From Anaeropeptidivorans aminofermentans (GTDB lineage Bacteria > Bacillota > Clostridia > Lachnospirales > UBA5962), in contig NZ_OW711693.1 in assembly GCF_940670685.1 (NCBI RefSeq), positions 496,001 through 560,000 on the forward strand: a stretch of 64,000 nucleotides of DNA. Direction: 5' to 3'. Made by a program: the position numbers and the translations under genes. The notes beneath the pieces are model-generated. The model was given only the letters and a program-made list of their open reading frames with translations. It was not told the origin of the DNA and searched no databases. Positions 1,362-58,197 of the stretch are shown piece by piece (position 1 is the first letter of the stretch; each line of letters begins with the position of its first letter).

Positions 1362-1491
1362 TATAGTAAATTTCACACAAGGATGTAATAAAAATCTATT
1401 TTTCATAAACGGCTTAAATATATAGAATCCCTATATTTAAGCCATTCAAAATATACGATTTTTATTACTGTTTCATTTGAATTTTACTATA
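1362..1491. repeat. Family B palindromic element, copy 1
   Basis: About 130 bp with ends TATAGTAAATTTC and GAATTTTACTATA. The conserved interior reads CTATTTTTCATAAACGGC, then TTAAGCCATTCAAAATATAC. Close relatives lie at 19488, 22867, 30697, 32190 and 62455, with a fragment at 7667. The rest of the gap to base 1759 holds no gene; bases 1560-1650 resemble another short repeat (TTCTTATTTTATGCC) also seen near 58,030 and 62,945. Confidence 0.65.
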
Positions 1492-7958: not shown

Positions 7959-8414
7959 CTAACCCCTAAAGGGGTCTTCATATTCTTTGACACTCAGCTT
8001 ATCTAGAGCAATGTCATGTTGCTCTTGTTCTCTGATGTATTTCTGGATGGTAGCTTCGTTCAGTCCTACCGTACTGACATAATAGCCAACTGACCAAAAA
8101 TGCCGATTCCCAAACTTGTACTTCAAATTTGCATGTCGATCGAAAATCATCAGGGCACTTTTCCCTTTTAGATATCCCATAAAACTTGAAATGCTGATCT
8201 TTGGTGGAATGCTCACTAACATATGCACATGATCTGGCATCAGGTGACCTTCGATCAGTTCTACGCCTTTGTAGCCGCATAACTCTCGAAGAATTTTCCC
8301 AATCGACTCTCGATATTGATTGAAGATGATTTTACGTCTATACTTTGGAGTGAACACAATGTGATATTTGCACATCCACTTTGTGTGGGACAAACTATTA
8401 TGTTGGTTTGCCAT
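7959..8414 (-). CDS. tnpA: IS200-type Y1 transposase TnpA
   Basis: A 151-residue HUH/Y1 single-strand transposase of the usual IS200 length. It shows YHIVFTPKYRRKIIF near the N-terminus, the HUH motif in MPDHVHMLVSIPP near residue 63, and the nucleophile region with YIREQEQHD near residue 126. It cuts and joins single-stranded element ends. It appears intact. The ribosome site AAAGG lies inside a long hairpin stem (8415-8477), the arrangement known to repress IS200 transposase translation. Confidence 0.95.
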   Translation of the reverse strand: MANQHNSLSHTKWMCKYHIVFTPKYRRKIIFNQYRESIGKILRELCGYKGVELIEGHLMPDHVHMLVSIPPKISISSFMGYLKGKSALMIFDRHANLKYKFGNRHFWSVGYYVSTVGLNEATIQKYIREQEQHDIALDKLSVKEYEDPFRG

Positions 8415-23284: not shown

Positions 23285-23367
23285 AAGTTCTGCTGATGCA
23301 TTTTCTTTCAGAAAATGTATTCGTGACGGAATTCAGACAAAGCCTGAACTTAGGTATAGTATATGAA
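23285..23367 (-). promoter_or_regulatory. Double-hairpin leader element, orphan copy
   Basis: Read on the minus strand: a -10-like TATACT (23363-23358), a small hairpin TTCAGGCTTTGTCTGAA, then GAATACATTTTC paired with GAAAATGCAT (23322-23295) and AGAACTTA. The second hairpin and AGAACTTA match the elements before the diguanylate cyclase gene. No minus-strand gene follows, so this copy is an orphan. From 23060 to 23540 I see no gene. Confidence 0.45.
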
Positions 23368-49079: not shown

Positions 49080-49172
49080 AAAGTATAGGTTTTGCTCATA
49101 CATTTTACAAAGTGAAATGTATTCGTGAATAAAACTAAGCAAAGCTTAGTTTTATTCATATTATATCATAAA
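49080..49172 (-). promoter_or_regulatory. Double-hairpin leader element before nagA
   Basis: Minus strand: extended -10 TGATATAAT (49168-49160), then after two bases a perfect 14-bp hairpin GAATAAAACTAAGC/GCTTAGTTTTATTC (49157-49127), then ACGAATACATTT paired with AAATGTAT (49122-49098). The order and second-hairpin sequence match the copies before tdh and the diguanylate cyclase gene. The transcript would begin at or in the first hairpin. Confidence 0.6.
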
Positions 49173-49431
49173 GTATATCATTTTGATTTTTTAATAGCAA
49201 ATAAATAAGGCTTAAGCTTATTAAAATTTTATTAACATTTTATTCCTTCAAAGACAAGTTATTTATTACGGCGTATTATATATTAATAAGCGAACTTAAA
49301 AATGATACAGGCGGAAGCTTGTAAATCTTTTTAACTGAGCGCCCCTTTATAGTTACTAAACTTATGTTAAAGGTTCGTAACTATAATAAGCAGCGATTGC
49401 TTTTGAATCTTCTTTTTTGGAGGGATCATAA

Positions 49432-50115
49432 ATGGATAAGGCTTTTAGGAAAACAGCGTCGAATTACAGTCACGGCTTAAGCGTCATACCTTATTTATTA
49501 TGTCTTGTATGGTTTTTTATTTTGGAACAGGTGGTTCTTGAGCCGGAATTTCTCATAGGAACGAAAATAGATAAGGTTATCCCTTTTTCAGAGGTATTTG
49601 TTATACCCTATGTGTTTTGGTATCTTTATGTGGCTGTTCCCGCCGTATATTTTTTCTTTAAGGCTCCCGATGATTTCAGAAAGCTCATGAGCTTTATGAG
49701 TTTTTCCATGATAATTGCCTGCCTGATATTTACTTTTTTTCCTAACGGACAGGCACTGCGTCCTTATATAAGACCTGATGGGCTGCTTGACAGCATTATA
49801 TCTAAAATATATAAGGCGGATACCCCGACGAATTCCTTGCCGAGCATTCATGTGATGTTTTCGGTAGGCGTCCATACGGCTCTTGTTCATTATAAGGATG
49901 CCAGCAGAAAAATATTGAACTTTTCCTTTGTATCTATGGTATTGATCTGTATCTCAACGGTATTTGTAAAACAGCATTCTATAGTGGATGTGATGGCGGG
50001 AATCATTTTTTCGGAGCTTCTATACATATTGGTATATATTAAAGGAATTACTGTGGACGATATCTGGAAAAAGGTAAGACTTTTTACAAAAAGAGGTATT
50101 TCTCTAAGAATGTAG
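49432..50115 (+). CDS. PAP2-superfamily membrane phosphatase
   Basis: A 227-residue protein with six predicted membrane segments. PAP2 motifs are NSLPSIHVMFSVGVH (residues 141-155) and VKQHSIVDVMAGII (near residue 184), giving the catalytic His and Asp. The layout resembles inositolphosphotransferase-like PAP2 proteins acting on lipid phosphates. GGAGGG precedes the ATG by seven bases. Confidence 0.85.
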   Translation: MDKAFRKTASNYSHGLSVIPYLLCLVWFFILEQVVLEPEFLIGTKIDKVIPFSEVFVIPYVFWYLYVAVPAVYFFFKAPDDFRKLMSFMSFSMIIACLIFTFFPNGQALRPYIRPDGLLDSIISKIYKADTPTNSLPSIHVMFSVGVHTALVHYKDASRKILNFSFVSMVLICISTVFVKQHSIVDVMAGIIFSELLYILVYIKGITVDDIWKKVRLFTKRGISLRM

Positions 50116-50342
50116 TAGGAATTGCGGACAAATTGATTTATTATAAAAATCCTAACACACGCAAATTTGGATAAAACAGCATTTATAAAAGATATTTTTA
50201 GCATTTTGGAACCATCATGAAAGGACAATTTAAAAAGCAAGGCAAAAGGACAAAAATAATCCTAGAATATAATTTATTTTATACAGTTTGCATTATTTTG
50301 TTTTAAATACTCCTGTGTTCGGATTCAATACACAAGGCATTG

Positions 50343-50376
50343 AAGAGGGCTTTCTTTAACGAAAAGCCTTCTTTTT
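50343..50376 (+). terminator. Terminator downstream of the PAP2 gene
   Basis: AAGAGGGCTTT and AAAGCCTTCTT pair (one G-T) and are followed by TTTT. It lies 228 bp beyond the PAP2 stop; no gene is seen between. Confidence 0.6.
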
Positions 50377-50551
50377 AATATCCATTAACCCATAAAAGAC
50401 TAAATGACAAATATGATGATTTTAATTAAAAATATTATAAAAATATATGCAAATTAAATAATGACACCTGGCCTACTGTAAAAATTATACATTTATTTAC
50501 ACAATTCATAACAGAATATTTTGCGAAAAATAATATTTTTATATATAAAGT

Positions 50552-50712
50552 GTGGTATAATGGAAGGGAAGCAAAGCTTTGGCTTTGCTTCCCTTCCGAA
50601 TACATTCTTCGAAAAGGAATGTATGAGTGGAAACTCTGCAGTTATGATACTTAGTGAAATAAAGTTTTGCTTTACTTTCATCATATATTTTTCAAAAGAA
50701 ATATATGAGTAA
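50552..50712 (+). promoter_or_regulatory. Double-hairpin leader element before tdh (two tandem copies)
   Basis: First copy: TGGTATAAT (50553-50561), a 16-bp perfect hairpin GGAAGGGAAGCAAAGC with complement (50562-50597), then TACATTC/GAATGTA (50601-50623). Second, diverged copy: TGAAATAAAG/CTTTACTTTCA, then ATATATTTTTC with GAAATATAT (to 50708). It lies 92 bases upstream of tdh. Confidence 0.6.
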
Positions 50713-50803
50713 AAATTAAGATTATGGTGCAATAATATCACTATAAAATAAGGGCAACTAAAATCAAACGCTCAAAAAGAGCAGAAACTGAAAGGAGATT
50801 TAT

Positions 50804-51844
50804 ATGAAGAGTACAATGAAGGCAATTGTTAAAAAATATCCTCAGTTTGACGGCCTTGTTCTTGAGGATGTGCCTATTCCGGAGATAGGTGACGATGAGG
50901 TTCTTGTTAAAATAAAAAGAACCGCTATCTGCGGAACAGATGTGCATATTTACGATTGGAACGAGTGGGCTCAAAGGACTATAAAAACTCCTATGACCAT
51001 AGGCCATGAATTTGTAGGAACAATCGTTCAGGTAGGAAAGCATGTTAAAAATCTGTCAGAAGGAACCCTTGTTTCCGCCGAAGGCCATGTTATATGCCAT
51101 ACCTGCCGTAACTGCCTTGCCGGAAAAGGGCACCTTTGCAAAACAGCACAGGGTATCGGCGTTAACCGTACGGGTATTTTTGCGGAATATGCCGCAATAC
51201 CTGCCGCTAATATCTGGGTAGCGGATGAAAATATACCCCTTGATCTTCTTGCATGTTTCGACCCCTTAGGCAACGCAACTCATACTGCCCTTAGCTTTAA
51301 CATGGTAGGAGAGGACGTTCTTGTTACGGGAGCAGGCCCTATAGGTATTATGGCAGTTGCCATAGCCCGCCACGTAGGCGCAAGAAACATCGTTGTTACA
51401 GACGTGAACCCTTATAGGCTTGATATGGCCATGGAATTTGGAGCAACCGCTGCTCTCGATGTTCGTACTGAAAAAATAGAAGATTGCTTTAAAAAGCTTA
51501 ATATAAAAGAGGGCTTTGATATAGGTCTTGAAATGAGCGGAAACGGCAGAGCCTTTAACGATATGATAAACGCCATGTATAACGGCGGAAAAATCGCCCT
51601 TTTAGGTCTTATCAATAACGATACAGTGATTGACTGGGACAAAGTAATATTTAATGGACTTACCATAAAGGGAATCTACGGAAGAGAGATTTTTGAAACA
51701 TGGTACAAAATGAGCGCCATGATTCAAAGCGGCCTTGACCTTGAAAAAATCATCACCCACAGATTCAGCTATAAAGACTTCCATGAAGGCTTTGAAACCA
51801 TGAGAAGCGGAAAATCAGGCAAAATCGTGTTAAACTGGGAGTAA
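50804..51844 (+). CDS. tdh: L-threonine 3-dehydrogenase
   Basis: A 346-residue zinc alcohol-dehydrogenase family enzyme oxidising threonine to 2-amino-3-ketobutyrate. It has TAICGTDVHIYDWNEW with the catalytic zinc Cys, GHEFVGTIVQVG, the structural zinc region CHTCRNCLAGKGHLC, and the Rossmann VTGAGPIGIMAVAIARH. kbl, coding for the next enzyme, follows. AAAGGAG lies seven bases before the ATG. Confidence 0.96.
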   Translation: MKSTMKAIVKKYPQFDGLVLEDVPIPEIGDDEVLVKIKRTAICGTDVHIYDWNEWAQRTIKTPMTIGHEFVGTIVQVGKHVKNLSEGTLVSAEGHVICHTCRNCLAGKGHLCKTAQGIGVNRTGIFAEYAAIPAANIWVADENIPLDLLACFDPLGNATHTALSFNMVGEDVLVTGAGPIGIMAVAIARHVGARNIVVTDVNPYRLDMAMEFGATAALDVRTEKIEDCFKKLNIKEGFDIGLEMSGNGRAFNDMINAMYNGGKIALLGLINNDTVIDWDKVIFNGLTIKGIYGREIFETWYKMSAMIQSGLDLEKIITHRFSYKDFHEGFETMRSGKSGKIVLNWE

Positions 51845-51845
51845 T

Positions 51846-52194
51846 TTAACATGAGCTCGGCGAAGCCTGCCCCCTTGATTTGCCAAGGAAAAGTCTGGAG
51901 GGATTTTCACGTTATAGGTATATAGACAACAAACCTGAAAAAAGTTTGCTGTCTATAAGGAAACGCTCACCTAAAAATGTTTTTACAGTTTTACTGTAAG
52001 CATTTTTGGGTTCACTAAGTATGAATTTGCAGTGTTTTTCTGCAAATTGTACGAATAGGCTCTATAGTCGGCTTACCTTGAAACCGAAGTGACAGCGTAC
52101 TGTAAAATGTCAGATAAGCCATAGGCACTTCGGATTGAAATGAATTCTGCTATAAAGTTCGGCGGAATTTTAATTCCGTCGGATTCTCAGTAAT
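51846..52194. repeat. Family E element, copy 4, with nested hairpin modules
   Basis: Left end TTAACATGAGCTCGGCGAAG and right end GAATTTTAATTCCGTCGG match family E. Two other modules are embedded: the TAGACAACAAACC...CACTAAGTAT hairpin pair (51921-52020), also found in composite family B copies, and the CCGAAGTG palindrome (52085-52135). It fills the gap between tdh and kbl. Confidence 0.65.
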
Positions 52195-52212
52195 TTAATA
52201 GGAGGTTTATAA

Positions 52213-53394
52213 ATGAAATCCGCATATAATATCTGGAACGAAACCATAAACGAAATCAGAGATGCAGGGCTTTGGAAGGACGAAAGAGTAATAACCACCC
52301 GCCAGTCCTCCTCCATCGATACAACTCAGAAAAACGACGTTATTAATATGTGCGCCAATAATTACCTTGGCCTTTCAGGAAACAAGGAAATAGCGGAAGC
52401 TGCAAAAGCAGGCATTGACAAATGGGGCTACGGCCTTTCATCAGTTCGCTTTATCTGCGGAACCCAGCAGGTGCATAAGGACCTTGAAAAGAAAATAAGT
52501 GAATTTCTCTATACGGAAGATACAATACTTTATTCCTCATGCTATGATGCCAACGGCGGGCTTTTTGAAACTCTGCTTACAGATCAGGACGCAGTAATAA
52601 GCGACGAGCTGAACCATGCAAGTATTATAGACGGCGTAAGGCTTTGCAAGGCCAAAAGATACAGATATAAAAATAATGACATGGCAGACCTTGAAGAACA
52701 GCTGAAGCAGGCCATGGACCAGAGAATCCGTCTTATAATTACAGACGGCGTATTCTCCATGGACGGTTATATTGCAAACCTTAAGGGCATATGCGATTTA
52801 GCTGAAAAATACGATGCCATCGTAGCCGTAGACGACAGCCACGGTGTTGGCGTAGTAGGGGAAAACGGCAGAGGAACCCACGAACACTGCGGCGTTATCG
52901 ATAGAGTTGATATCATCACAGGTACCCTTGGAAAAGCCCTCGGCGGCGCCAGCGGCGGATATACTTCCGGCCGGAAAGAAATCATTGATATTTTAAGACA
53001 GCGTTCAAGGCCTTACTTATTCTCCAATACTCTTGCTCCGGTGATTGCTTCTGCTTCCATCAAGGTTCTTGATATGCTTATGAAAGACAATAGCTATAAA
53101 AATACCCTTGACGAAAATATGAAATACTACAGGCAGAGGCTTACAGAAGAAGGATTTTCTCTTCTTGACGGCTGCCACCCCATTATACCTATTATGGTAT
53201 ACGATGAAATCATCGCCCAGAAAATGGCTGCGATTCTTTTAGAAAAGGATATTTATGCAGTGGGCTTCTTCTATCCCGTTGTTCCAAAGGGAAAAGCAAG
53301 AATAAGAACTCAGGTTTCCGCCGCCCATACAAAAGAGCAGCTTGACAGGGTTGTAAAAGCATTTGTTGAAGCTAAAAATGAATTAGGACTATAA
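52213..53394 (+). CDS. kbl: Glycine C-acetyltransferase (2-amino-3-ketobutyrate CoA ligase)
   Basis: A 393-residue PLP enzyme splitting 2-amino-3-ketobutyrate with CoA to glycine and acetyl-CoA. It shows [39 protein letters not shown] and the PLP lysine in [14 protein letters not shown] near residue 241. AGGAGG precedes the ATG by eight bases. The family E element between tdh and kbl carries no evident terminator, so the two may still be cotranscribed. Confidence 0.96.
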
Positions 53395-53400
53395 AATAAA

Positions 53401-53427
53401 AAAAACAGCCGAAAGGCTGTTTTTTTA
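53401..53427 (+). terminator. Terminator after kbl
   Basis: AACAGCC, GAAA loop, GGCTGTT, then TTTTTT, nine bases after the stop. Confidence 0.93.
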
Positions 53428-53544
53428 TGTACAGAAAATTTTAAGCGAAATTTTATAGATTTTATATTTAATTTGAATAATATAAAATATAAGAACATTA
53501 TTAACTTACAGGAAGAATTACATGTAGTCAATTCATACACAAAC

Positions 53545-53880
53545 GTGGTATAATGTAAACAAAATCAAACGCTGTTTGATTTTGTTTATGAATACATTTT
53601 CCGAAGGGAAATGTATGAATAGAACTTAGGTGAGCTATATATGGTGAAAATCAAACGCTGTTTGATTTTGTTTATGAATACATTTTCCGAAGGGAAATGT
53701 ATGAATAGAACTTAGGTGAGCTATATATGATGAAAATCAAACGCTGTTTGATTTTGTTTATGAATACATTTTCCGAAGGGAAATGTATGAATAGAACTTA
53801 GGTGAGCTATATATGGTGAAAATCAAACGCTGTTTGATTTTGTTTATGAATACATTTTCTGAAGGGAAATGTATGAAAAA
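53545..53880 (+). repeat. 86-bp tandem array of the double-hairpin leader element
   Basis: Units begin at 53561, 53647, 53733 and 53819 (AAAATCAAACGC), an exact 86-bp period with almost no differences; the last unit is cut after the second hairpin. Each unit holds hairpin AAAATCAAA/TTTGATTTT and hairpin TACATTTTCC/GGAAATGTA. The first is preceded by TGGTATAAT (53546-53554), the extended -10 shared with the tdh leader. It lies upstream of the diguanylate cyclase gene. Confidence 0.85.
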
Positions 53881-53989
53881 AGTAAATGACTTATTTAATT
53901 TTAAGATATATTATTACGGCCCTACATTTAAGTTTTAGCAAAATTTCGTAATAACTTTAAGCATAAGCAATAATTGACTGGGGTGCTTT

Positions 53990-55210
53990 ATGGGGCGGAA
54001 ATATAAAGCTGGAATCTACTCTTTTGAAAAAATGTTTTTTAATGAACTTAACTCTGATTACAGGTCTGAATTTTGTAAAATGTGTGCCGACAGAAACATC
54101 GGGCGTTTAAAGACGATGCTTACATTAAATATATTTCTCCAGATAGGCCTTAATTTTATAATGAGAAATATGAATCCCCATATGTACTTTTATAAAATAG
54201 AGTGGGATATGGAACTTCGTCTCTTTTTTTCGGCAACTTATGTCCTTTATAATGTCATTTCTTTATTGATTATACTTAAACTTGAAGAGCTTCGAAAAGA
54301 AACTATGTATTCTTCCAGCCTGAACTTATTTGCTGTTTTGGCAATAATGATAGGATTTGGTTTTTATGAAGCATTTCATTCTGTTCTTGAAATTGCCTAT
54401 TCAGGCAGTGTATACAGGCTTATTGCAAGTATTCTTATTATAGTTTTTGTTCCTTTGCTGGATAGAAGAATAAAAGCAGGGCTTCTTCTTTATTATATGC
54501 TTGCAGTCGAATCTGCCGCATTTTATATCCCTAAGGAAAGCATATATTTTTCAAATATCAGAATTTTTATGGTGGCAATTACGATTTTAAGCTTTATTTC
54601 ATGGAGTATTGTGCATTCAAATGCTATAAAAGATTTTTATATATGGCAGGAAATGCTTGAAAAAATAAAAAGGCTTGAAAACGCCATAAATGACCTTGAG
54701 TATTTAAGCGAAACAGACCCGCTTGTTCAAATAGCAAACAGAAGATTTATCAATTCCTATCTTGAACGGGTATGGAATCAGGCCAGACGGGATCGGACAA
54801 AAGTATTTTTTATGATGGCGGATATCGACCGGTTTAAAAGCTATAATGATACCTATGGCCATACCCAGGGAGATGAATGCCTTAAAATCGTTGCAGCCAC
54901 GATGAAGAAAAGCCTTAAAAGGTCCACAGATATTGTAGGCAGGTTCGGCGGAGAGGAATTTGCCGTTATACTCACCAGCGTAACCGATGAGGGGTTTGAA
55001 AAAACAGCGGAGAAAATCAGAAAAGATGTAGAGATGCTAAAAATCCCAAACGAAGGCAATATTCCCTACGGCTTTGTAACCATAAGCATAGGCGCATCTT
55101 CTATGATACCTTTGGGAGAAGAGACCTATGAAGCACTTATTGAAAGAGCAGATAAAGCCCTTTACGAAGCAAAGGATACAGGAAGAAACAAGGTCTGTTT
55201 TTATAGATAA
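53990..55210 (+). CDS. Membrane diguanylate cyclase (GGDEF)
   Basis: A 406-residue protein. About six membrane segments occupy residues 35-215, a linker helix (EMLEKIKRLENAINDLEYLS) follows, then a GGDEF domain (240-405) with DPLVQIANRRFI, ADIDRFKSYNDTYGHTQGD and active site GGEEF. RSTD five residues upstream of GGEEF is a canonical inhibitory I-site, so product feedback is likely. It makes cyclic-di-GMP. The sensor has no named domain I recognise. GGGGTG lies six bases before the ATG. Confidence 0.92.
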   Translation: MGRKYKAGIYSFEKMFFNELNSDYRSEFCKMCADRNIGRLKTMLTLNIFLQIGLNFIMRNMNPHMYFYKIEWDMELRLFFSATYVLYNVISLLIILKLEELRKETMYSSSLNLFAVLAIMIGFGFYEAFHSVLEIAYSGSVYRLIASILIIVFVPLLDRRIKAGLLLYYMLAVESAAFYIPKESIYFSNIRIFMVAITILSFISWSIVHSNAIKDFYIWQEMLEKIKRLENAINDLEYLSETDPLVQIANRRFINSYLERVWNQARRDRTKVFFMMADIDRFKSYNDTYGHTQGDECLKIVAATMKKSLKRSTDIVGRFGGEEFAVILTSVTDEGFEKTAEKIRKDVEMLKIPNEGNIPYGFVTISIGASSMIPLGEETYEALIERADKALYEAKDTGRNKVCFYR

Positions 55211-55215
55211 AAAGT

Positions 55216-55542
55216 ATGCCGCTCATGCTGCGGCATAAATTATTATAGGCCTTTTCGTGATAAGATAATACAGATTATTTAAATAGAGGCATGCTATGTT
55301 TGAAGATGCAGATACAAAAAAAGATATTGCAATTAAAATATTAAATGATGAATCAGGCATAATCTTAATATACCGGAAAAGATATAAGAGAAGTATATGG
55401 GGTCAGAGTGAATATACGGTTTTATTACTGTTTGACTTTAAATTTACTATAATGGACCTTTATCTGTACAGAAGGATAAGTTTACTAATTTACGTCGGAA
55501 GAGCATTAAAAAGCCGCTTTAAGCGGCTTTTTAATTGCTTTT
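55216..55542. other. Intergenic region with repeat end and hairpins
   Basis: A hairpin ATGCCGC/GCGGCAT (55217-55237) without a T run follows the cyclase gene. A solitary family A/B right end (GAATATACGGTTTTATTACTG, then AAATTTACTATA) lies at 55410-55452. A 106-codon open frame across this region includes the repeat and the terminator and is not believed. Confidence 0.5.
55508..55536. terminator. Bidirectional terminator
   Basis: AAAAAGCCGCTT and AAGCGGCTTTTT form a perfect stem with T runs on both strands, just past the end of the minus-strand histidine phosphatase gene. Confidence 0.88.
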
Positions 55543-56190
55543 CTATGCTAACGGTGCAGGGTGTTCCCCCTCATAAGAAAAATAACCGTCCTTATATACT
55601 ATTTTTAAAAGAGTAAGATTTGGTATGACCTTGCCTGCCATATCGTCACCTGTTATTTCATTAAGTATCGTAAGAATTGCCATGCCATGAGTCACTACAA
55701 GAATATCCTTCCAGCTGTTTTTTTCGGCCGTAAATGCAGCGCCTTTCATGGTGGACATGATCCTGTCCCTGGCTTTTTCATATGTTTCGGCTTTTTTTGA
55801 TGCGTCTCGTTCTCTTGCGGATATGGCGAAGTTTTCAAGAAAGTTTCTTGTGTTTGAGCTGTCTTTGCATCGGTCCAAAGCGGCAGTGATTACGCTTACG
55901 TAAGATACGGTTCCTTCGAGGCTTCCAAGGCCCCATTCTCTTAATCCCTGTTCCGTAAAAAAGGGGGCGGGATAATGGTTTTTTTCCATAATAAGCTCTG
56001 AGGTTTTTACGGCCCTTCCTAAATCGCTTGTAAATACTGCATCAAATCTAAAGTTCTTAAGGCTTTCGCCTAATTGAGAGGCCTTTTTTTCTCCTTTTTC
56101 CGTCAAGGGAGAGTCAGACCAGCCCTGCATTCTTTTTTCCGTATTGTATACTGTTTCACCATGTCTTAAAATATAAAAGTTAATTTCCAT
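55543..56190 (-). CDS. Histidine phosphatase family protein (phosphoglycerate mutase-like)
   Basis: A 215-residue protein with FYILRHGETVYNTEKRMQGW at the N-terminus holding the RHG catalytic motif, FTSDLGRAVKTSELIM, and the second His in ILVVTHGMAILTIL. This superfamily includes cofactor-dependent mutases, cobalamin pathway phosphatases and general phosphatases; the substrate is not predictable. GGAGATACCG precedes the ATG. It is 20 bp downstream of the cardiolipin synthase gene. Confidence 0.9.
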   Translation of the reverse strand: MEINFYILRHGETVYNTEKRMQGWSDSPLTEKGEKKASQLGESLKNFRFDAVFTSDLGRAVKTSELIMEKNHYPAPFFTEQGLREWGLGSLEGTVSYVSVITAALDRCKDSSNTRNFLENFAISARERDASKKAETYEKARDRIMSTMKGAAFTAEKNSWKDILVVTHGMAILTILNEITGDDMAGKVIPNLTLLKIVYKDGYFSYEGEHPAPLA

Positions 56191-56210
56191 CGGTATCTCC
56201 TTATATAAAA

Positions 56211-57710
56211 TTACATAAGCGGGGCAATGAGCCTTAAAACCCCTTCAGAAAGCCTTGTGAATATATTTCGTTTTTTAAATTCCTCAGGGTCTATTTTTTT
56301 GCTCTTTTTCATATCCTCCTCAAATATTTTTCTGCAATCTATAGAAACCTTTTCATCATAAATAAAAGCGTTAATTTCAAAATGAATACTGAAGCTTCGC
56401 ATATCCATATTACAAGTCCCTATGGTTGCGATTTCATCGTCTATGACAATCATTTTTGAATGAAGAAAGCCGTTATAGCAATATACCTCTATGCCGTAAT
56501 CCAAAAGGTCCTGAATATAGGATAAGGTTACTTGATAAACCGTCTTTTTGTCGGGAATCCCGGGAATCATTACCTTAACGTTTATTCCTGAAGAGGCGGC
56601 TATTTGAAGGCTTTGGATAAAGGCTCTGTCAGGGATAAAATAAGGGGTTTGTATCAATATGGATTTTTTCGCCATGCCAAACATTTTAATAAACCCTATT
56701 AGTATCTGGTCTGTTTTTGTATCCGGGCCGCTGGATACAATCTGCATTCCTACGCTTCCGCCCAAATCCTTAGGAACGGAAGGAAAAAACGGTGTAAGCT
56801 CCTCTATGGTTGTTATACGCTTGTCCTTTGAAGCGTAGTACCAGTCCATAAGAAACCTAGCTTGAAGGGCATATACTGCATGGCCAGTTATTCTGATATG
56901 GGTGTCCCGCCAAGGGGAGGTTCTTTTTCTAAGGCCTAAATATTCGTCCCCGATATTTGTTCCGCCGGTATAACCTATTTTACCGTCGATTACTGCTATT
57001 TTTCTATGGTTTCTATAATTGGCCCGTATAAAGGTTTTAAAATTAAGAGGAAAGAATCTGCATACGCTTCCGCCGGCATTTATAAGAGGGGCAAATGCTT
57101 TGTGGCGTGTTAAAATGCTTCCCATGTCATCATAAATTACCCTGACTTCAACCCCTTCCGATGCTTTTTTGGTGAGGGCATTAATGAACCTTTCGCCTGT
57201 TGCATCGTTTTGGAATATGAAATAAAGTAAATTTATGCTTTTTTCAGCATTTTCTATATCTTTAATGAGCGCATCGTATTTATCCTTAGCGTCTACATAT
57301 ATCTCTATGCTGTTATCTTGGGTATAAGCGTCATTACCCAAAAGATAATGGAGCTTTATAAGCGGAAGATAATCCTTTGTTTTAGGGTCGCAGAAGCAGA
57401 AAGACGAATCGAGGGCATTGGTGATGCCGAAATATTCGCTGTCGATTTTATCGGCAGCTTCATGAAGATTTTCATCGTCCCGAAGCTTTGCTTCAAGGGT
57501 TTTTTTAGCGCTTATTTTAAACCCTCTTCCTAAGAAGATATATAGGATTACGCCTACAACCGGAAGAAAGACGATTACAAGAATCCAGCTCATGGTCTGA
57601 ACAGGCTCTTTTCTTTCTACAAATAAAAGCATAATAAGGCTTAATATATTGAGAATATATAATATTAAGGCAATTAATCCCGGAATATTCAAATTAGTGA
57701 TTGCCTCCAT
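56211..57710 (-). CDS. cls: Cardiolipin synthase
   Basis: A 499-residue membrane phospholipase D-superfamily enzyme condensing two phosphatidylglycerols. Two N-terminal helices (about 10-60) are followed by two HKD sites: NHRKIAVIDGKIGYTGGTNIG near residue 236 and HSKMIVIDDEIATIGTCNMD near residue 417. AGGAGG precedes the ATG. It is probably cotranscribed with the phosphatase gene behind it. Confidence 0.96.
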   Translation of the reverse strand: MEAITNLNIPGLIALILYILNILSLIMLLFVERKEPVQTMSWILVIVFLPVVGVILYIFLGRGFKISAKKTLEAKLRDDENLHEAADKIDSEYFGITNALDSSFCFCDPKTKDYLPLIKLHYLLGNDAYTQDNSIEIYVDAKDKYDALIKDIENAEKSINLLYFIFQNDATGERFINALTKKASEGVEVRVIYDDMGSILTRHKAFAPLINAGGSVCRFFPLNFKTFIRANYRNHRKIAVIDGKIGYTGGTNIGDEYLGLRKRTSPWRDTHIRITGHAVYALQARFLMDWYYASKDKRITTIEELTPFFPSVPKDLGGSVGMQIVSSGPDTKTDQILIGFIKMFGMAKKSILIQTPYFIPDRAFIQSLQIAASSGINVKVMIPGIPDKKTVYQVTLSYIQDLLDYGIEVYCYNGFLHSKMIVIDDEIATIGTCNMDMRSFSIHFEINAFIYDEKVSIDCRKIFEEDMKKSKKIDPEEFKKRNIFTRLSEGVLRLIAPLM

Positions 57711-57954
57711 TAAGCACCTCCTGTTTCATAAGGCAAATATAATTCTATTTTACCATACTTTTGGTTTTTCTCATACAAACTTATTAAACTTAAAAGTGTC
57801 TTTTAACTTTTAAGCTTAATGCGTTTTACATATAAGCCTATAGATAAATAAACTTGGTATTTTTAAATTTATTTACCGTGTTCAGCTGCTCAATTATGCA
57901 GGGGGAATTCTTTATGCATTTGCCCTGATTCGCATATTAAATCAAGGTTAAAGT

Positions 57955-58197
57955 AAATTTCTTATAAAAAGTAACAAACCGTATATTCACTAAATCCATA
58001 TAAAATAGGAGTATTGTCAATTTGTCTTTCTCTTATTTTATGCCTTCTAAAACCAAATGCTTATAGAGGTACAAAAGCAAATTGACTTATATATTGACTT
58101 AACAATCTGCTGTTTCTGAAGAAACCCTATATTTTTAAGTCTACAGTACACAGATTGCGTTTACTTTTTATGAGAAATTTACTATCATATAGTTTGT
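57955..58197. repeat. Nested palindromic repeats upstream of the SLOG gene
   Basis: Outer arms AGTAAATTTCTTATAAAAAG and CTTTTTATGAGAAATTTACT enclose an inner element GTCAATTTGTC...GCAAATTGAC with TCTTATTTTATGCCTTCT, which recurs near 62,938 and more weakly near 1,590. No gene is seen in 57711-58256. Confidence 0.5.

Follow-up and report, generated by a model that had tools for sequence, protein, structure and literature searches.

Why do four nearly identical copies of an 86-bp sequence stand in front of a diguanylate cyclase gene, and is the arrangement private to that gene? The array lies in a 64,000-nucleotide stretch of the Anaeropeptidivorans aminofermentans genome (hereafter the window, whose positions are used throughout), and a first-pass annotation had described it as a recently expanded, structured leader whose unit number might phase-vary cyclic-di-GMP output. 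TRF returned it as the sole tandem array in the whole window (53561-53877: period 86 bp, 3.7 copies, 98 % matches, no indels, score 620), confirming the four near-identical units. Units 1-3 show one base of difference among them, while unit 4 has one base different and then departs from the repeat directly past hairpin 2 (Table 1); near-identity of this kind implies recent amplification or homogenization, in line with the recent expansion proposed. Each unit contains two palindromes, and the folded leader is considerably more stable than its shuffled counterparts (-122.4 vs a shuffle mean of -79.7 kcal/mol, z -8.0, 0/100 shuffles as stable); with a GGDEF domain encoded downstream, the description as a structured leader of a cyclase gene holds.

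As the first-pass annotation had stated, TATAAT precedes unit 1 alone. It forms part of the top promoter match in 53340-54050 (TG-TATAAT, 53546-53554; 10/12 with TG), whereas matches downstream of 53880 reach at most 9/12 and are without TG, so that sequence matching favours a promoter upstream of the array over one lying only downstream of 53880. If the seventh base after TATAAT is taken as +1, a spacing that we assume, the predicted transcription start is 53561, 7 nt past the box, where the periodic tract begins. The start proposed previously, 53545, agrees with that of the conserved element (TGGTATAAT from 53546) but not with that of the periodic tract. On the 5′ side, a terminator-like palindrome (53399-53426) is predicted to isolate the cyclase unit from transcription coming from the upstream gene. 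This gene and the dehydrogenase gene listed in Table 1 were identified by their aminotransferase and zinc dehydrogenase domains, and we presume them to be kbl-like and tdh-like, respectively.

Table 1. Coordinates of the cyclase array, its surroundings and the other family copies in the window
Feature	Position	Strand	Remarks
Terminator-like palindrome 3′ of the upstream aminotransferase-family (kbl-like) gene	53399..53426		Reported on the - strand; symmetric
Extended -10 box TGGTATAAT, conserved 5′ edge of the family	53546..53554	+	TATAAT at 53549-53554
Hairpin 1 of the leading unit (15 perfect pairs, loop GCT)	53556..53588	+	Lower five pairs at predicted -5 to -1
Repeat unit 1 (hairpin 1, hairpin 2, linker)	53561..53646	+	Left edge is the predicted +1
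Hairpin 2 of unit 1 (11 pairs, loop GAA)	53592..53616	+	
Repeat unit 2	53647..53732	+	
Repeat unit 3	53733..53818	+	
Repeat unit 4 (59 bp, without linker)	53819..53877	+	Stops after hairpin 2
Downstream gene, GGDEF diguanylate cyclase (406 aa)	53990..55210	+	GGDEF domain E 8.6e-50; translation has GGEEF
Second family copy, comprising two units, upstream of the zinc dehydrogenase gene at 50804	50553..50709	+	Hairpin 1 sequence quite different, still a palindrome
Single copy at the start of an amidohydrolase gene	49095..49168	-	Start codon probably called too early
Single, weaker copy	23293..23366	-	50 bits

Short reading frames were also observed in 53641-53935, where each inner unit makes a Shine-Dalgarno-like AGGTGAG followed by a small ORF (24, 24 and 41 aa), the last of which reaches to ~50 nt before the cyclase start. 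We rejected a tandem small-peptide gene because the linker that supplies these starts is private to the cyclase array (between-array linker identity 0.61), and on the same ground the ORFs are probably a product of chance, though possibly an upstream ORF.

The repeat itself recurs throughout the genome. Searching the organism's own genome (3.757 Mb, one contig) with 53540-53990 returned 57 matches (67-100 % identity), typically spanning 53546-53877 or a part of it that ends at a unit boundary. Stretches around the matches were taken, 41 diverse units were aligned, and the covariance model built from them was used to search the genome again, giving at least 120 matches at E <= 0.001 (150 of 7785 first-look candidates scored). 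Across 420 kb around the sites, 167 raw matches resolved into 134 sense units at 67 sites, both lower bounds: 132 sense matches were kept (lowest 31.5 bits), two units at site L052 were added with a placeholder score, and the 35 left out were antisense partial matches and the weakest matches, including a few full-length matches in sense orientation at around 29-30 bits. The site list appears near complete, as 399 kb chosen away from known sites gave weak matches only (best 35 bits). Forty-five sites carry a single unit, and the other 22, about a third, are tandem arrays of 2-10 units (six of 2, two of 3, six of 4, five of 5, two of 6 and one of 10), the longest of which stands before ftsZ.

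Most of these sites are intergenic: 57/67 lie clear of every called ORF, and for 9 of the remaining 10 the overlap is confined to ORFs of 72-166 aa, 8 of these on the opposite strand (gene context was taken from a mechanical ORF caller, not from annotation, with minimum lengths of 70 aa for sites and 100 aa for background). For the 66 sites with a neighbour on both sides, we counted 31 tandem co-oriented, 6 tandem against, 25 divergent and 4 convergent, and hence elements in tandem gene pairs point with the genes in 31/37 cases (p 4e-5). Background gaps of at least 120 bp (n=180; 125 tandem, 30 divergent and 25 convergent) show that divergent sites are enriched (25/66 vs 30/180, p 9e-4), while the shortage of convergent sites relative to these gaps does not reach significance (p 0.12). 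The 56 sense downstream genes lie at a median distance of 111 nt. Pfam scanning of 51 of these returned a match for 48, including DnaX, prolyl- and glutamyl/glutaminyl-tRNA synthetases, FtsZ (10 units), FtsK, ClpP, IMP dehydrogenase (guaB), PurH, DXP synthase (dxs), IspF, LexA, superoxide dismutase, rubrerythrin and RecX, with no shared pathway evident among the scanned genes.

This census bears directly on the reading from which we started, namely that the array is a private phase-variable switch of c-di-GMP output. Exact tandem units do precede a GGDEF gene, but ftsZ, ftsK, dxs and further genes have the same arrays in front of them, and the cyclase array is one of at least 67 sites found mostly before ordinary or housekeeping genes; a special connection with c-di-GMP is not upheld, and we consider a private switch highly improbable.

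The family layout consists of an extended -10 box (TGnTATAAT), a 15-bp triloop hairpin (hairpin 1), an 11-bp hairpin (hairpin 2) and a linker, in units of 86-90 bp. The upstream edge is sharp, with conservation beginning at ttaTGnTATAAT and none before it (61 leading units of at least 45 bits). Many single copies carry a tail, GAGCAnAACnTA...TTATGATATAAT, after hairpin 2, which amounts to a second box; an exact TGnTATAAT was present upstream in 21/45 singles, downstream in 11/45 and at both edges in 8/45. The aligned edges, judged by eye, display direct TTATGnTATAAT repeats rather than inverted ones.

Pairing is kept in 93.9 % of cells of the alignment, a level reached by 0/500 shuffles and far above that of slid controls, and compensatory changes occur at 14/15 pairs of hairpin 1 and 5/11 pairs of hairpin 2, the latter being conserved in both sequence and pairing. 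The hairpin 1 sequences at window 50553 and at L052 are entirely different, yet both remain palindromic. The L052 array (L052:2944-3140, -) has a 61-bp spacing; hairpin 1, which in the leading unit is rich in G+C and of unrelated sequence, has been lost from the inner units.

Structure and position together raise the possibility of a cis-regulatory RNA common to a regulon, in which a protein or ligand would bind the double hairpin and control all the genes, with unit number setting the response. The sense leader position, the covarying structure and the sequence conservation of hairpin 2 in addition to its pairing are consistent with such an RNA. We nevertheless find it very unlikely, given the lack of a common pathway among the downstream genes (51/56 scanned), the complete replacement of the hairpin 1 sequence at some sites (e.g. 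window 50553) and the outcome of an Rfam 15 search of the window, which gave 0 matches at gathering score. Identity with an Rfam family was likewise rejected, as the region around the array, searched with a loose cut-off, matched unrelated families alone and always below threshold.

The lower stem of hairpin 1 deserves separate consideration. Its five pairs are Watson-Crick in 300/329 lettered cells of leading units vs 124/225 of inner units, and the arm covaries, being paired in 97 % of cells at 25 divergent sites. If TATAAT is the promoter, this arm lies at -5 to -1 and outside the RNA, and its covariation is not explained by an RNA made from that promoter, since the arm is upstream of the predicted start and read-through is unlikely at divergent sites. 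G-U pairs outnumber A-C mismatches in leading units (42:29 in hairpin 1 and 40:22 in hairpin 2, in an alignment that had been fitted to the structure), an excess that leans only mildly toward selection at the RNA level.

Palindromes of this kind could also be produced by mutation without selection, if template switching during replication corrected imperfect palindromes and so generated apparent covariation. The near-equal numbers of G-U and A-C mismatches in hairpin 1, together with pairs at -5 to -1 that covary despite lying outside the predicted RNA, fit this explanation; correction should act equally on inner units, however, and their lower stem stays unpaired (the 124/225 vs 300/329 above). 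As an account of the palindromes we regard it as quite unlikely, and for the lower stem itself the pattern suggests that either the DNA palindrome matters or template-switch correction maintains it.

The same asymmetry between leading and inner units marks the box. Among 13 homogeneous arrays of at least three units, TATAAT is present in 12/13 leading units vs 2/53 inner units, one of the latter two being the start of a second array inside L035 (these counts omit L041, L047 and L054, 3/16 arrays of at least three units, in which units are dissimilar or mixed). The ten units before ftsZ (L035:2942-3812, -) are two back-to-back arrays, the second with its own intact TATAAT. Over all sites, a perfect TATAAT occurs in 49/67 leading units and 8/67 inner units. 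When the leader was compared with the first inner unit in 20 of the 22 arrays (L054 and L033:3376, the latter without TATAAT, being omitted), identity was 0.15-0.60 at -16 to -1 and 0.60-1.00 at +2 to +20. This drop upstream of the predicted +1, with the tract of the cyclase array starting exactly there (53561), indicates that only the transcribed part has been multiplied, the promoter part being present once.

How such polarity arose can be read in two ways. Ordinary duplication with subsequent loss is suggested by L034 and L035, in whose inner linkers a decayed promoter (TACAAT) can still be recognized. In 12 arrays, at least 41/45 positions are identical between the leader and the first inner unit; there the shared sequence begins within a few bases of the predicted start, and both the promoter and the arm of the palindrome at -5 to -1 remain single. 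Conceivably, then, arrays grow by copying of the transcribed segment, with duplication anchored at the start site through an R-loop, a promoter-proximal hairpin or reverse transcription of leader RNA. Were this so, the family would represent a type of leader that grows by entire hairpin units downstream of a single promoter, but the decayed-promoter linkers of L034 and L035 count against it and we hold the idea to be highly improbable.

Inner units are on average more alike within an array than between arrays (0.92 vs 0.82), as are linkers (0.90 vs 0.61), indicating that arrays expanded or were homogenized in place. Across sites, the nearest-neighbour identity of leading units has a median of 0.85 and is at most 0.95, and flanks are unshared; we therefore see no signs of recent dispersal.

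Beyond this genome the family was scarcely encountered. The 6 further genomes of the taxonomic family (7 including its own) yielded no match to the element, and the partly overlapping sets of order (196) and class (391) genomes, own included, gave only two single marginal matches outside its own genome (G021, 40.3 bits; G453, 37.3 bits), in searches that scored 12-150 candidates per genome and would miss a much diverged family. Viral contigs gave no match to the family. Taken together, these searches suggest that the family is lineage-restricted, with next to no trace of it in the other genomes searched. Scanning named genomes revealed one contig of MAG UBA11329 that is 99.8 % identical to the superoxide dismutase site, although this MAG as a whole represents another organism, matching 49400-58000 at only 67-70 % and over genes. 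At least three UBA11329 contigs are 99-99.8 % identical to the species studied (L101, L112 and L114), a probable case of binning contamination in the public MAG. The family sites on the three same-species contigs are not homogeneous arrays, and the named-genome scan, in which they were the only other same-species DNA, yielded no second strain with a homogeneous array. At L089:3877-4190, ~315 bp are present here and absent from a near-identical UBA11329 contig (L112).

A literature search combining tandem repeats in leaders with diguanylate cyclases, phase variation and clostridia turned up no paper; nor did searches for a novel repeat family in Firmicutes or for 'UBA11329', and further papers judged by title or abstract held nothing describing the element. 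Going by these searches, the family may be undescribed.

Several other repeats were noticed. Window 8025-8381 and 25 other places in the genome match an IS200-type Y1 transposase, several with identical score and length, which suggests recent activity. A second dispersed repeat (window 1387-1468, L114, L038, L050, L095 and L096) consists of short stretches 82-94 % alike, and its window copy contains a long AT-rich palindrome. Finally, a promoter-like stretch at 55407-55453 (TTGACTTTAAATTTACTATAAT) recurs at 82-94 % in many UBA11329 contigs and partly upstream of two sites in the organism's own genome.

A short, palindromic, interspersed family found in one lineage only might be a mobile miniature element of MITE or REP type, moved by a transposase of the genome; its position near genes would then reflect target choice or tolerance, and the array would have no function at the cyclase gene. 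The 26 Y1 transposase matches, several equal in score and length, would supply a candidate enzyme, and the second TTATGATATAAT in which many singles terminate leaves both edges with direct repeats of fixed sequence. Yet none of the 8 IS200-type loci searched has the element at its ends, one of them having an unrelated copy ~400 bp off, and an origin from IS200-type insertion ends was rejected on this count (0/8). The absence of terminal inverted repeats from the aligned edges (by eye) and of recent dispersal (leading units median 0.85, maximum 0.95, with unshared flanks) also argues against mobility, as do the strong sense bias and the few convergent sites, unlike pneumococcal BOX. We judge this reading unlikely.

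The reading that we consider probable makes the cyclase array one member of a lineage-restricted family of interspersed repeats, which combines a portable promoter with a structured, tandemly expandable leader; a promoter and leader function of the family is well supported by the sequence comparisons. At the cyclase gene, RNA polymerase would start at about 53561 and produce a transcript bearing four double hairpins over ~430 nt ahead of the cyclase start. Units would be gained or lost through slippage or unequal recombination, hairpin number may tune the stability of the mRNA or the translation of the cyclase, and loss of inner promoters by drift or selection would leave a single start serving the whole array. 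Counting against this model are the 6/37 tandem sites that face the wrong way, the 4 convergent sites, the 18/67 leading units without a perfect TATAAT, the covariation of the lower stem at -5 to -1 and the mildness of the G-U excess.

Should the promoter-and-leader model be correct, a large share of ordinary genes (ftsZ, ftsK, dnaX, clpP, guaB and dxs) would lie behind one repeat that provides both a promoter and a length-variable leader, and the natural series of 1 to 10 units could show the effect of leader hairpins on expression directly. A stem that covaries upstream of the start also raises the question of whether a DNA palindrome at -5 to -1 is relevant to extended -10 promoters.

With regard to known repeats, the family appears to be a variant of the promoter-bearing interspersed repeats of the Correia and BrickBuilt kind and to work like them: it has many intergenic copies in one genome (67 sites) and a predicted promoter within the element (TGnTATAAT at the 5′ edge), and two features of MITEs, terminal inverted repeats and ends common to an autonomous transposon, were absent from the aligned edges and from the 8 IS200-type loci searched, respectively. 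REP and REPIN sequences with their RAYT transposase are short intergenic palindromes that occur at many sites and have a usual boundary tetranucleotide. The present family shares with them the palindromes, the many intergenic sites and the presence of Y1 transposases in the genome; it differs in its sense leader position, with no link to the 8 transposase loci searched and without the usual REP tetranucleotide having been noticed.

BOX of Streptococcus pneumoniae is outlined as a modular interspersed repeat with a variable number of inner units, predicted hairpins and known effects on neighbouring genes (PMC3049150), and interspersed modules, inner units that vary in number among sites and predicted hairpins are all found here. 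According to the same account BOX is over-represented between convergent genes, whereas the present family, with 4/66 such sites, points at downstream genes, and its anatomy differs from the boxA-boxB-boxC modules. Correia repeat enclosed elements of Neisseria are interspersed and can carry sigma70-like promoters just upstream of genes (PMC2649163, PMC10969869), and the present family likewise places promoter sequence directly upstream of genes; as these sources describe them, Correia elements are bounded by inverted repeats and are not tandem-unit arrays, and it is by description that the two are set apart. BrickBuilt of Porphyromonas gingivalis is presented as a promoter-active, species-restricted intergenic MITE with 19 copies in one genome, in which tandem 23-bp units without spacers lie between a leader and a tail and the ends are small inverted repeats (PMC4596501). 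Judged against that description, the units here are longer (86-90 bp), contain two covarying hairpins and lack terminal inverted repeats, and the box stands on the first unit only; what the two have in common is a restricted lineage, intergenic tandem units and a promoter, predicted in the present case.
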